64,000 nt of DNA from an uncultured Gemmatimonadota bacterium. GTDB lineage: Bacteria; Gemmatimonadota; Gemmatimonadetes; Gemmatimonadales; Gemmatimonadaceae. The position numbers and the translations under genes were made by a program. Numbering within the stretch: the stretch's first letter is position 1; each line of letters begins with the position of its first letter. A model generated the notes under the pieces. That model saw only the letters and a program-made list of their open reading frames with translations. It had not been told where the DNA came from and did not search any database. The stretch covers positions 62,001 through 126,000 of the forward strand of contig CADEFN010000004.1 in the NCBI GenBank assembly GCA_902826615.1, written 5' to 3'. Shown piece after piece: positions 18,213-23,707 of this stretch.

Positions 18213-19334
18213 TCACTCCGGTGTCACTTTCCCCAGGATCCGCGGACCACGTGCCCCGGTGGCCGTGGGCACATTGCCGGGCGCTCCGGTGAGGTGCAGG
18301 TAGCCTAACAAGGCAAAGGCCACGGCTTCCTTTGCCTCTCCATCAAAGAAGATGTCGTCGAAGCTGACGAGACGTGTGGGCGCAATGCTCTGCGCGATGG
18401 CCTCTACCAGGGCCGGGTTCTTCGCGCCGCCTCCCGACACCACCACCTCGGCCACGGGCTCGGGCATGAAGCGGCGATAGCTGTCGGCAACCGATGTGGC
18501 CGTGAGCGACACCGCGGTCGCGACCATGTCACTCACCGTGGCGTCGGGACGCGCACCCCGGCACATGGCGATGAAGCGGTCGATGTAGGCCTGGTCGAAG
18601 AACTCGCGGCCCGTGGACTTGGGCGGCGGGGCGAGGAAGTAGGGGTCATCGAGCAGCGATGCCACCACCTCGTGTATCGTGCGCCCCTCGCGCGCCAGCC
18701 GTCCGTCCTCGTCGTAACGCAATTCGGGAAAGTGGCGGCGCACCACGCCATCGATGATCACCACACCAGGCCCGGTATCAAAGGCTCGCACACCGCGATC
18801 GTCTCCACCCGGCGGCACCACCGTCACGTTGCCGATGCCACCCAGGTTCTGGAGCGCGCGCCAGTGGTCCCGCGAGGAGAACAGCAACCGATCCGCAGCA
18901 GACACGAGCGGAGCACCCTGCCCTCCCGCCGCGACGTCGCGCACACGGAAGTCGCTGATCACCTTGATGCCGCAACGCTCGGCAATGACTGCGGACTCGC
19001 CCGTCTGCCAGGTGGAGTGACCCGGGACATGCCAGATGGTTTGCCCATGCGACGCAATGGCGGCCACCTCGTCGCGGGCCACCCCGCTCGACGCCAGCAA
19101 CCGCAGTGCTGCAGCGGCGAGCCATTCGCCGAGGTCGAAGTTGAGCCGGCAGTACTCCTCGGGGGTGCCCTGCTGCAGCGCGCGGGTCATGCGCTCGCGC
19201 TGAGCCGTGGAGTAGGCCAGCACCTCGAAGCCGAGGAGGTCGGGGACAATGCGGGCGCCATCGCGCGTAAAACGCACCAGCGCCGCCGAGATGCCGTCCA
19301 GCGAGGTGCCGGACATGAGACCGATGAGCAGCAT
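18213..19334 (-). CDS. anmK: Anhydro-N-acetylmuramic acid kinase
   Basis: This 373-residue ASKHA-fold kinase phosphorylates 1,6-anhydro-MurNAc with ring opening to MurNAc-6-phosphate during peptidoglycan recycling. Family signatures are clear: GLMSGTSLDGI at the N-terminus (phosphate loop), IASHGQTIWH, LQNLGGIGN, FDTGPG near the middle, and VVSGGGAKNP with the second nucleotide-binding loop. Length matches E. coli AnmK (about 370). I start at the ATG at 19334, because the open frame continues about 227 codons further upstream only as an out-of-frame shadow of murQ. murQ lies 26 bp upstream on the same strand; AnmK makes the substrate that MurQ cleaves, so this is a two-gene recycling operon. 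Confidence 0.96.
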   Translation of the reverse strand: MLLIGLMSGTSLDGISAALVRFTRDGARIVPDLLGFEVLAYSTAQRERMTRALQQGTPEEYCRLNFDLGEWLAAAALRLLASSGVARDEVAAIASHGQTIWHVPGHSTWQTGESAVIAERCGIKVISDFRVRDVAAGGQGAPLVSAADRLLFSSRDHWRALQNLGGIGNVTVVPPGGDDRGVRAFDTGPGVVIIDGVVRRHFPELRYDEDGRLAREGRTIHEVVASLLDDPYFLAPPPKSTGREFFDQAYIDRFIAMCRGARPDATVSDMVATAVSLTATSVADSYRRFMPEPVAEVVVSGGGAKNPALVEAIAQSIAPTRLVSFDDIFFDGEAKEAVAFALLGYLHLTGAPGNVPTATGARGPRILGKVTPE

Positions 19335-19360
19335 GGAAGAGATCGTGGTCGAAAACGTGG

Positions 19361-20266
19361 CTACGTGCCGAACGCGGCAATGCGACGGACGACACCACCG
19401 GCGGCGTTGAGTGCCTGTTCGGCCCCGGCGCGATCGGTGTTGAGCCGGTGCATAACGAGGGCGGTCTTCACACTGCCCCCCGACGCCTCGAGCAGGGTGC
19501 GGGCCTCGTCGCGCGAAGCACCGGTGAGGGCGCTCAGGATTCGCTCCGAGCGGTCCTTGAGCTTCACATTGGTCGCGCGCAGGTCGACCATGAGATTGCC
19601 GTACGTCTTGCCCACGCGGATCATCGCGCCGGTGGTGATCATGTTGAGGATCATCTTGGTGGCGGTGCCTGCCTTGAGCCTCGTGGAGCCGGTGACCACC
19701 TCGGGGCCGGCGACCGCGACGATGAGCGCGTCGAGCGTGTCGCCAAAAGCAGCGTCCACCGGAGTGCAAGCCACCAGCGCCGTGCGTGCACCGCGCTCGC
19801 GGGCCCGGGCCAGTGCTCCGCGCACAAACGGTGTAGTGCCAGATGCAGCGATCCCCACGAGGACATCGGCTGCCCCGAGTTGTTTCTCGTCGATGGCGGC
19901 GGCGCCGCCAGCGGGGCTGTCTTCGGCGCCTTCCTGTGAACGGAACACTGCGCGTTCGCCGCCGGCGATGATGCCCTGCACCAAATCGGGGTCGGAGCCG
20001 AAGGTGGGCGGGCACTCGCTCGCATCGAGAATCCCGAGCCGCCCTGAGGTACCGGCGCCGACATAAAAGAGTCGTCCATTGCCCCGAAAGGCCGTTTCGA
20101 CAAAGCCGATCACCCGGGCTATCGGCTCGCGCTGCGTGGCCACGGCGTCGGCCACCAGCCGGTCTTCGGCGTTCATGATGTCGACGATTTCCAGCGGCGA
20201 GGCGAGGTCGATCTCGGCGCTTCGCAGGTTCCGCTGCTCGGTTACGCGACTATCGCCAATGGACAC
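19361..20266 (-). CDS. murQ: N-acetylmuramic acid 6-phosphate etherase
   Basis: This 301-residue lyase cleaves the D-lactyl ether of MurNAc-6-phosphate to GlcNAc-6-phosphate and D-lactate. It shows the single SIS-domain core of MurQ: TEQRN at the start, YVGAGTSGRLG binding the sugar phosphate, LDASECPPTFG, GIAASGTTPFV, and the late motif STRLKAGTATKMILNMI. The C-terminal helices carry LEASGGSVKTAL. The start is chosen at GTG 20266 so that TEQRN sits near the N-terminus as in E. coli MurQ (298 residues). An ATG 21 codons upstream would add a non-conserved Arg/Pro stretch. No MurP phosphotransferase importer is nearby, consistent with a role on internally recovered anhydro-sugars through the adjacent anmK. 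Confidence 0.96.
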   Translation of the reverse strand: MSIGDSRVTEQRNLRSAEIDLASPLEIVDIMNAEDRLVADAVATQREPIARVIGFVETAFRGNGRLFYVGAGTSGRLGILDASECPPTFGSDPDLVQGIIAGGERAVFRSQEGAEDSPAGGAAAIDEKQLGAADVLVGIAASGTTPFVRGALARARERGARTALVACTPVDAAFGDTLDALIVAVAGPEVVTGSTRLKAGTATKMILNMITTGAMIRVGKTYGNLMVDLRATNVKLKDRSERILSALTGASRDEARTLLEASGGSVKTALVMHRLNTDRAGAEQALNAAGGVVRRIAAFGT

Positions 20267-20382
20267 GCCAAGAGCTGGGGTTGGTGGCACGCGTCGGTGT
20301 CTCGGGGGTTGAAGCAGTTGGCCGGTCAAATCTCATCGGAAAGATGAGCCGTCACGGTAAGTTACCCCCTCCACTTCGTCCG

Positions 20383-21104: not shown

Positions 21105-22682
21105 ATGCATTTCCCGCCGGTGGTGCTGGCGATCGCCTTCGCCGCACTGGTCATCGCCCTTACCGCCCTGGCTCGTCGGCTCCCGATTCCGAGCCCGATC
21201 CTGCAGGTCGTCGCCGGCATCGCGCTCGGGCTCGTGCCCGGCATGAACGTTCCGGAGCTCGAGCCTGACATCGTCTTCTTTGTCTTCCTTCCGCCAATCC
21301 TCTGGGCGGCAGCGTTCTTTACGTCGCTGCGCGAGTTCAAGGCGAACCGGAGACCGATCGGGCTGCTCGCGGTTGGGCTGGTGCTTGCCACCACGGCGGT
21401 GGTTGCGATCACGGCGCGGGCGCTGCTACCCGGACTCCCCTGGGCCATCGCGGTGGCGCTGGGCGCCATCGTATCCCCGCCGGATGCCGTTGCCGCCGCC
21501 GCGATTGTCTCGAGGCTGCCGGTTCCCCGCCGAGTCATCGTCGTGCTCGAAGGGGAGAGCCTGGTCAACGATGCGTCGGCGCTGGTGCTCTACCGCACTG
21601 CCGTCGCAGCGGCAGTGACCGGGGTGTTCAGCTGGGGTGAGTCGATCGTGCGGTTTTTCATCGACGCCGGCGTCGGAACGGTCGTCGGGCTTGTCGTGGG
21701 GTGGCTGATCATTCGGGCGCTCAAGTTCACACGCGAGCCGCTGGCGGAAACACTCCTGACACTTGCCGGCCCATATGTCGCCTGGGTGGCTGCCGAAACC
21801 ATTCACGTGTCGGCGGTGCTGGCCTGCGTGGCAGGCGGGTTGTACACACGCCAGCACTTCTCGACGGCGGTGTCACCGGTCTCGCGAGTGCAGGCACGGG
21901 CGGTGTGGGACCTGTTCGTGTTCCTGCTCAATGCGCTCATCTTCCTCATCCTGGGCCTGCAGTTTTCGGCGCTCATCGACTCGGTCCCGGCAGGCGCGCT
22001 GGCTTCGGTGGCAAGGTCAGCGGCAATCATCAGTTTGGTGGTTATTGCCATCCGGCTGGTCTGGGTGCCGATCGCCACCTTCCTGCCGCGGTGGCTGAGC
22101 GCGGAGACACGACGCCGTGACCCGGTCCCCGGATGGAAGCCCATCTTTCTGGTGTCGTGGACCGCCATGCGTGGCATCGTCACGCTGGCGTCGGCCCTGG
22201 CGCTGCCACGCACGTTAGGCGATGGCACACCCTTTCCGTACCGGACCGAGGTCATCCTGATCTCGATGGGAGTGATCCTGGCAACACTCCTGGTGCAGGG
22301 TTTCAGTCTGAGCCCGATCATCAAGGCCTTTCGCTTCCAGCCGGAACACGCTCACCACGATGAGGAACGGCTCGCCCGACGCGAAAGTCTGCGTCGCGGC
22401 GCCGAGGCGCTGGATGACATGTCACGCGAGGGATGGGCCGATCCAGCCGATGTCTCGTGGATGCGGAGTGAGCTGCAGGACAAGATGCGGTTGCAGCAGC
22501 ATGGGGCAACGCCCGAGGGACGCCGCAAGCTGCGTGTCGGTGTGATCAACGCCGAACGCCGCATGCTCCTCCGCTTGCGCAACGAGGGAGCCATCTCCGA
22601 CGAGGTCATGCGGGAACTCGAAACGGAGCTGGACTACGAAGCGATGCGCGTGGGCGCCGGGGAGCTGCGGAGTAGTCGTTAG
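21105..22682 (+). CDS. CPA1-family Na+/H+ antiporter
   Basis: This 525-residue inner-membrane monovalent cation/proton exchanger has about twelve hydrophobic segments in residues 1-400. These include FFVFLPPILWAAAF, the unwound-helix region with GAIVSPPDAVAAAAI (the functional Asp of the CPA1 SPPDAV motif), LEGESLVNDASALV, and SWTAMRGIVTLASALALP near residue 350. These are hallmarks of NhaP/YjcE-type antiporters. The cytoplasmic tail (about 410-525) is charged and helical. Its stop codon TAG overlaps the stop TAA of the convergent Kir-like channel gene by three bases, so the two genes share their last nucleotides. Two monovalent cation transport genes converging here suggests a local role in Na+/K+/pH homeostasis, which is inference. 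Confidence 0.95.
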   Translation: MHFPPVVLAIAFAALVIALTALARRLPIPSPILQVVAGIALGLVPGMNVPELEPDIVFFVFLPPILWAAAFFTSLREFKANRRPIGLLAVGLVLATTAVVAITARALLPGLPWAIAVALGAIVSPPDAVAAAAIVSRLPVPRRVIVVLEGESLVNDASALVLYRTAVAAAVTGVFSWGESIVRFFIDAGVGTVVGLVVGWLIIRALKFTREPLAETLLTLAGPYVAWVAAETIHVSAVLACVAGGLYTRQHFSTAVSPVSRVQARAVWDLFVFLLNALIFLILGLQFSALIDSVPAGALASVARSAAIISLVVIAIRLVWVPIATFLPRWLSAETRRRDPVPGWKPIFLVSWTAMRGIVTLASALALPRTLGDGTPFPYRTEVILISMGVILATLLVQGFSLSPIIKAFRFQPEHAHHDEERLARRESLRRGAEALDDMSREGWADPADVSWMRSELQDKMRLQQHGATPEGRRKLRVGVINAERRMLLRLRNEGAISDEVMRELETELDYEAMRVGAGELRSSR

Positions 22683-23707
22683 GCCGGGAGCGCGGGCACG
22701 CCGGCTTCGGCTGCGGCTGGTACCGCGGTGGCGCCATCGTCCAGCCGGTCGGTGCGGTCCAGCCGGTCGACGTCAATCGCAATCACGCCGTCTTCTGCTT
22801 GCATGAAGATGTCGGCGAACTTCACATCCCAGCGGACCTCGTCCCAGAGGTACGACATGCGCGACGTCACGTGTGTGGAGAAGGTTTCCTCATGGGCGCG
22901 CACGTGGACCAGAAATTCGGCCTGGGCGGCATGCAGGCCCTCCGGGGTAATGCCGCGCAGCGGACTGGAGGCCGTGATGGGATGCACGACGGTCCAGTGC
23001 AGCGTGAAGAACTCGACCGTGCTGCGTTCAAGCTCCAGCTGATGGAAGCGACGTTCGCGGCTGCCATTCACATCCTCGAACCAGGCGAGGTTGAGGCGAA
23101 CCTGTACGTCGCTCAACTCACCGGGTTTGATGTTGACCATGCGAAACATGAGGGCGCGTCCGCCGCGATAGGGCGCGACAATCGCCGACTCGCTGAAGCG
23201 GACACTCATGCGAGGCCGGGTGATGCGCGCCACGAGCAGTCCGCCGAGTCCGAGCATAACGAGAGGGCCAAGCAGGGACTCGAAGATCACCAGCCAGGTG
23301 GCCGTGGCTCCCACGGCGTGCATGGGACCCGTGCCGGCCGTGGTAAAGATCCCGACGCTGAAGGCAAAGGCCCGCAGAAAGGTGTCACTGATCCCCATCT
23401 GCTCCTGCCCCGCCAGCGCCGCCGATCCCAGCGCGGTATAGGCCGCAGTGAAGAGCCCGTTGAGCAGCAACATCGCAAAGATCGACCAGGCCAGGAACTG
23501 CGGCCAGCTGGCGTTGAGCGCCTCCTGATAAAATCGGTCAGAGCGCTGCGTCCCGAGGCCATATTTGCGGCTGTTGGGGGTACCGTCGCGAGAGAGAAAG
23601 CGGCCGCGAACCTGCTGGGCAACGACGCGTCCGAATCCGAGGTCTTCGGTGGGACGGTCGGCAGCGGGAATAGTGGGTTCTGTTGCGGGCTTTGTCGGAG
23701 CGCTCAC
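22679..23707 (-). CDS. KirBac-like inward-rectifier channel homologue with altered filter
   Basis: This 342-residue two-helix pore protein has a cytoplasmic immunoglobulin-like Kir domain. The order matches KirBac1.1: an N-terminal slide helix (SDRFYQEALNASW), outer helix (residues 70-90), pore helix ending SVGIFTTAGTG, inner helix (135-160), the VARITRPR junction, then the C-terminal domain with AIVAPYRGG, WTVVHPI and SSPLRGITPE. The selectivity filter is the oddity: where potassium channels read TVGYG, this has T123-A-G-T-G127. The Tyr is replaced by Thr and the Val by Ala, so K+ selectivity cannot be assumed. The His of MHAVG matches the filter-following MHP of KirBac. Proline/alanine-rich ends are probably disordered. 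It converges on the CPA1 gene with overlapping stop codons. Confidence 0.88.
   Translation of the reverse strand: MSAPTKPATEPTIPAADRPTEDLGFGRVVAQQVRGRFLSRDGTPNSRKYGLGTQRSDRFYQEALNASWPQFLAWSIFAMLLLNGLFTAAYTALGSAALAGQEQMGISDTFLRAFAFSVGIFTTAGTGPMHAVGATATWLVIFESLLGPLVMLGLGGLLVARITRPRMSVRFSESAIVAPYRGGRALMFRMVNIKPGELSDVQVRLNLAWFEDVNGSRERRFHQLELERSTVEFFTLHWTVVHPITASSPLRGITPEGLHAAQAEFLVHVRAHEETFSTHVTSRMSYLWDEVRWDVKFADIFMQAEDGVIAIDVDRLDRTDRLDDGATAVPAAAEAGVPALPA

Follow-up and report, generated by a model that had tools for sequence, protein, structure and literature searches.

A Kir homologue lacking the K+ signature filter is paired with a CPA1 antiporter gene in Gemmatimonadaceae

Introduction

Does a Kir-type protein whose selectivity filter lacks the K+ signature still act as a channel, and what might it do for the cell? 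The question is raised by a gene on the minus strand (22679..23707) of the window, by which we mean the whole 64,000-nucleotide stretch of contig CADEFN010000004.1, from an uncultured Gemmatimonadaceae bacterium, that was analyzed. The gene begins with GTG, ends with TAA and encodes 342 amino acids in an intact frame with no internal stop. A promoter and terminator scan of its region found neither.

Kir homologues without TxGYG are known as NirBacs (Zubcevic et al. 2015, PMC4607889). The POPG-activated channels NirBac1.1 and NirBac1.2, from Anaeromyxobacter, conduct Na+, K+ and Rb+ non-selectively in liposomes, and NirBac2.1 (YP_002762692), from Gemmatimonas aurantiaca T-27, has the filter TTGTD, was re-sequenced by its authors and “proved problematic” to express (PMC4607889). 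NirBacs have been reported without a known cellular role, and one NirBac2 sequence has been published.

The protein has a Kir fold without the K+ signature

The codons for residues 123-127 (23327..23341, minus strand) read T123-A-G-T-G opposite the T[IV]GYG of KirBacs, at exactly the position and with exactly the residues given by an earlier, sequence-only reading of this DNA. That reading had also assigned the protein to the inward-rectifier fold, and this was borne out: the cytoplasmic Kir domain (IRK_C, PF17655; residues 169-323, 22739..23203, minus strand) was matched at E 2.6e-18, phmmer aligned residues 34-316 to KirBac3.1 at E 2e-45 with TAGTG opposite TIGYG, and an AlphaFold2 model superposed on KirBac3.1, its best structural match (Foldseek E 1.8e-29), with a Z of 23. 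KirBac1.1 was matched at E 4e-37, and the transmembrane part of the protein matched Pfam IRK weakly (15.1 bits, cut-off 22.7). The slide helix, M1, pore helix, M2 and beta-sandwich are all present in the model (mean pLDDT 76.8). On the minus strand, the outer transmembrane helix M1 (residues 68-93) is encoded at 23429..23506, the pore helix (residues 109-122) at 23342..23383, and the inner helix M2 (residues 134-162, with Pro148 and Val159, from the model and column counts) at 23222..23308. About filter geometry we make no claim: the protein was modelled as a monomer, its N-terminus is uncertain and its rmsd to crystal chains is large, probably reflecting a domain swing. The protein is certainly a true Kir-fold homologue from which the K+ signature has been lost.

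Relatives form a separate clade with many different filters

We searched 395 genomes of the phylum Gemmatimonadota for homologues. Identity to the window protein, in this search and in a scan of public genomes, was bimodal, with one group at 53-77% and the other at 46% or less, and removal of identical sequences left 44 members of the first (NirBac2) group and 73 of the second (KirBac) group. A single branch separates the two in a maximum-likelihood tree (SH-aLRT 100, stem 1.11), and the window protein, which lacks TxG[YF]G, groups apart from the T[IV]G[YF]G KirBacs of the phylum. Within its clade lies the homologue from G. aurantiaca T-27 (L022, genome G019), which reads TTGTD. Because NirBac2.1 of that species falls in the same clade, the window protein is a NirBac2; it has the Kir architecture with a cytoplasmic domain and a filter without TxGYG that characterize the NirBac family, and it is ~57-59% identical to NirBac2.1 over the length of the latter, with a filter that differs in its letters (TAGTG as against TTGTD) but is of the same kind.

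The 73 KirBac filters are TIGYG (65), TVGYG (5) and TIGFG (3; L060, L096 and L121, with Phe in place of Tyr). By comparison, Tyr or Phe occurs in the filter of none of the 44 NirBac2-clade members, among which we counted 22 different pentapeptides: TTGTG in 11, TTGTD in seven, TTGVD in three, TAGTG in two, and 18 others, including TSDTT. The sequence-only reading had proposed an alignment to see whether a clade shares AGTG; a clade without the aromatic residue was found, but AGTG is not common to it, TAGTG being present in just the two members. The window gene is no isolated oddity, since the clade is wide, its filter varied and the type already described as NirBac2.1.

A sequencing error or a decaying pseudogene might in principle explain why an almost universal motif is missing. 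However, the altered filter is found clade-wide in independent genomes, nearly all members have intact frames, and pairwise omega within the clade is mostly 0.04-0.3, with a few low-dS pairs reaching 0.3-0.5. Because omega is far below 1, NirBac2 genes are under purifying selection. We therefore give error or decay a negligible chance; together with a chance origin, these readings are refuted by the omega values, by a 44-member clade with no aromatic filter residue and by the re-sequencing of NirBac2.1. We likewise rejected the idea that a local KirBac of canonical type had mutated recently, given that a long branch (1.11) of its own leads to the clade and that both types coexist in nine of the sampled genomes.

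The public-genome scan, whose query-derived patterns would miss distant relatives, returned only Gemmatimonadota and one metagenome-assembled genome (MAG) labelled Planctomycetota, and on plasmids we found only distant matches in Synechocystis and Caballeronia (~31-34% identity). The sequence from the MAG (L031, JAEUHW010000266.1) is the nearest relative of the window protein, at 77% identity; as it branches beside the window protein inside the Gemmatimonadota clade and has a CPA1 partner, the MAG was probably either mislabelled as Planctomycetota or misbinned. One KirBac-type gene (L127, G226:C48:10989-11906) contains five in-frame stops and, unlike the intact NirBac2 genes, is apparently decaying or misassembled.

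The outer filter has changed while the inner filter and pore frame are kept

NirBac2 shares the slide helix, M1, pore helix, M2 and cytoplasmic Kir domain with KirBac3.1 and KirBac1.1, but it lacks three features of KirBacs: the TxGYG signature, polarity at the residue behind the filter, and an aromatic side chain at the bundle crossing. Position 119, behind the filter, is E, Q, H or D in KirBacs and G, S or A in the NirBac2 clade (Gly119 in the window protein). Column 159, at the bundle crossing, is Phe in 70 of the 73 KirBacs and, by the phmmer alignment, Tyr in KirBac3.1, compared with Ile, Val or Leu in the NirBac2 clade (Val159 in the window protein). A proline at 148 in M2 has been gained in 40/44 members, and at column 124 the Ile or Val of KirBacs is replaced by Thr in 31/44. 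Gly127 is retained in 21 members and lost in 23, with Asp in 13. Other pore positions are kept, including S117 (44/44), T123 (41/44), G125 (40/44; four members lack it) and the M2 glycines 147 and 156. Because T123 and G125 persist while Tyr126, often Gly127 and the polar residue at 119 are gone, the inner ion sites of the filter could survive in NirBac2, whereas the outer ones cannot. NaK and CNG channels are non-selective, and the inner-kept, outer-lost filter of NirBac2 resembles theirs in kind, not by descent.

Preservation of the inner T-x-G sites would also suit a channel that still prefers K+ despite an unusual filter. The precedent is TbIRK of Trypanosoma brucei, a Kir channel without the signature that nevertheless prefers K+ (pK/pNa >7; PMC5429665) and is likewise signature-free, although it is very distant and has the filter GGYVG. 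In the NirBac2 clade, however, no Tyr or Phe remains, the second filter glycine is lost in more than half of the members, often to Asp, and the filters of the clade are too varied to match one precise K+ cage, so we regard K+ preference as improbable.

Conservation differs between the two groups in opposite directions along the protein. Mean entropy of the cytoplasmic domain is 0.98 in the NirBac2 clade versus 1.58 in the KirBac group (more conserved in NirBac2), and that of the filter is 0.96 versus 0.28 (less conserved in NirBac2). When the P-loop was left out of tree building, 36 changes at residues 123-127 were counted over a tree length of 13.8 in NirBac2 and five over 33.5 in KirBac, a rate ~17 times higher in NirBac2. 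An outer filter that evolves this freely, to the point of four members without Gly125, would be expected of a non-conducting Kir pseudo-channel, which would sense lipids or cations or would scaffold or regulate a CPA1 antiporter, and whose filter would drift because the pore carries nothing; the well-conserved cytoplasmic domain and the strict antiporter pairing described below are also in keeping with this reading. Yet T123, G125, the pore helix and the two M2 glycines are kept beyond what a dead pore would need, and NirBac1 proteins, with stranger P-loops, still conduct. We therefore consider a pseudo-channel unlikely.

A convergent CPA1 antiporter gene accompanies NirBac2

The gene that converges on NirBac2 in the window (21105..22682, plus strand) encodes a CPA1 Na+/H+ antiporter (TIGR00831, a_cpa1, 361.9 bits, cut-off 279.6). 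The genes meet tail to tail and share four nucleotides, TTAG (22679..22682), which holds the stop codons of both (TAG on the plus strand, TAA on the minus strand), and an overlap of this length occurs in nine distinct loci, the window included. Of 45 NirBac2 loci, three repeated a contig already counted, leaving 42 for comparison. CPA1 is convergent and immediately downstream of NirBac2 in 37 of these, among them the locus of NirBac2.1 (L156). In four of the remaining five the contig ends within 200 bases, so that the tail-to-tail arrangement holds for 37 of the 38 distinct loci with enough flank. The other is in genome G331 (L164/L170), the only genome with the two genes separated, by 20.6 kb on the same contig, possibly through a local rearrangement. 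All 36 linked CPA1 copies that were examined contain the motif ESLVND.

No CPA1 gene was found within ~3 kb of any of 74 KirBac loci; the two apparent exceptions, L046 and L047, are C-terminal fragments of NirBac2 genes. Besides alternative frames of NirBac2 and CPA1, no other neighbor family occurs in more than 10 NirBac2 loci, and the commonest KirBac neighbors occur in nine loci, once alternative frames of the channel gene are set aside by inspection. The literature that we searched contained nothing on KirBac-antiporter neighborhoods.

The two genes also share their distribution. NirBac2 was detected at E <=1e-90 in 42 of 179 Gemmatimonadaceae genomes, and each of the 42 also has a CPA1 orthologue at 63% identity or more, the next CPA1 homologues reaching no higher than 43%. 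Genome G399 seemingly has CPA1 only, but the final ~44 residues of a NirBac2 are encoded where its contig ends, so it counts as having both. The 179 genomes therefore divide into 43 with both genes, 136 with neither and none with one. Fisher's test, applied before the G399 correction, gave p 2.7e-40 for co-occurrence, a value that treats genomes as independent when they are not, because the sampled genomes are related. In genera g1, g2, g4, g7, g12 and g16, pair-positive and pair-negative genomes stand side by side, and the two genes are present or absent together. The protein distance matrices of NirBac2 and CPA1 are correlated (r 0.83, Mantel p 2e-4), for which shared species history alone could suffice.

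That NirBac2 and CPA1 are always found together in this family, and nearly always adjoining, suggests that they are a working pair. Linkage is no proof of co-expression, since convergent genes share no promoter. The conserved linkage and co-occurrence do lend strong support to the proposal, made when only the window had been seen, that convergence with a CPA1 antiporter makes Na+ or mixed cation handling plausible. This pairing is our main new result, the channel type itself having been published in 2015 as NirBac2.1, and as far as the library that we searched shows, neither the clade-wide filter variety nor the strict antiporter pairing has been described before.

A possible cation cycle

We favor, as somewhat the better bet, the reading that NirBac2 is a poorly selective monovalent-cation channel that works with the convergent CPA1 antiporter in a cation cycle. 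The protein would form a Kir-type pore, presumably a homotetramer. Its K+ filter has been taken down on the outer side, through loss of the Tyr, frequently of the second Gly, and of the polar residue behind it, and the inner T-x-G is kept. Such a pore would conduct monovalent cations with little discrimination between Na+ and K+ and would be gated through the parts that it has retained, namely the slide helix, M2 and the cytoplasmic Kir domain. The CPA1 antiporter would export Na+ (or K+) against H+ entry, and the channel would return the cation to the cell, so that CPA1 could keep running without being starved of substrate, in the service of pH and cation homeostasis.

Non-selective conduction is likely by analogy with the measured relatives NirBac1.1 and NirBac1.2, which share with NirBac2 a Kir architecture without TxGYG. 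The analogy carries non-selectivity over from a different filter, because the NirBac1 P-loop has been wholly replaced by unrelated sequence with no KirBac homology, whereas in NirBac2 the outline of the P-loop and the inner T-x-G persist. Thus, of the two consequences that the sequence-only reading had drawn from the loss of the Tyr, altered selectivity is the likely one, and a non-conducting sensor found no direct support. We infer the selectivity of NirBac2 rather than read it from the filter, because TbIRK shows that a Kir channel without GYG can still prefer K+.

The coupled cycle itself is plausible by analogy with NsvBa, a non-selective channel that provides Na+ re-entry in alkaliphilic Bacillus (PMC4225499). 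In Bacillus alcalophilus, with its antiporters, NsvBa would be a functional counterpart of NirBac2, a non-selective channel supplying antiporter substrate, but it belongs to the voltage-gated Na+ channel family and its filter is unrelated. The window genome contains five PF00999-type transporters, so the CPA1 protein is not simply its only antiporter. No match to Ion_trans_2 (PF07885) was found in this genome (99% complete) at E 0.001, and NirBac2 appears to be the sole channel of the two-helix P-loop type that was detected there.

More tentatively, and at less than even odds, we propose that NirBac2 and CPA1 may constitute an obligate two-gene cation-cycling module, in which a Kir-derived leak channel with a freely evolving filter would serve a single antiporter, the two being retained or lost as a unit across the Gemmatimonadaceae, and the filter perhaps being tuned to the cation that the partner exports. 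The strict pairing provides a concrete, testable hypothesis for the cellular role of NirBac2, and the 44 sequences, with their 22 natural filter variants, can serve as an existing mutational series for asking what an ion filter tolerates.

Elsewhere in the window, 18213-20329 (minus strand) encodes an N-acetylmuramic acid 6-phosphate etherase (MurQ) immediately followed by an apparent AnmK-type kinase frame, which together look like a peptidoglycan-recycling pair.
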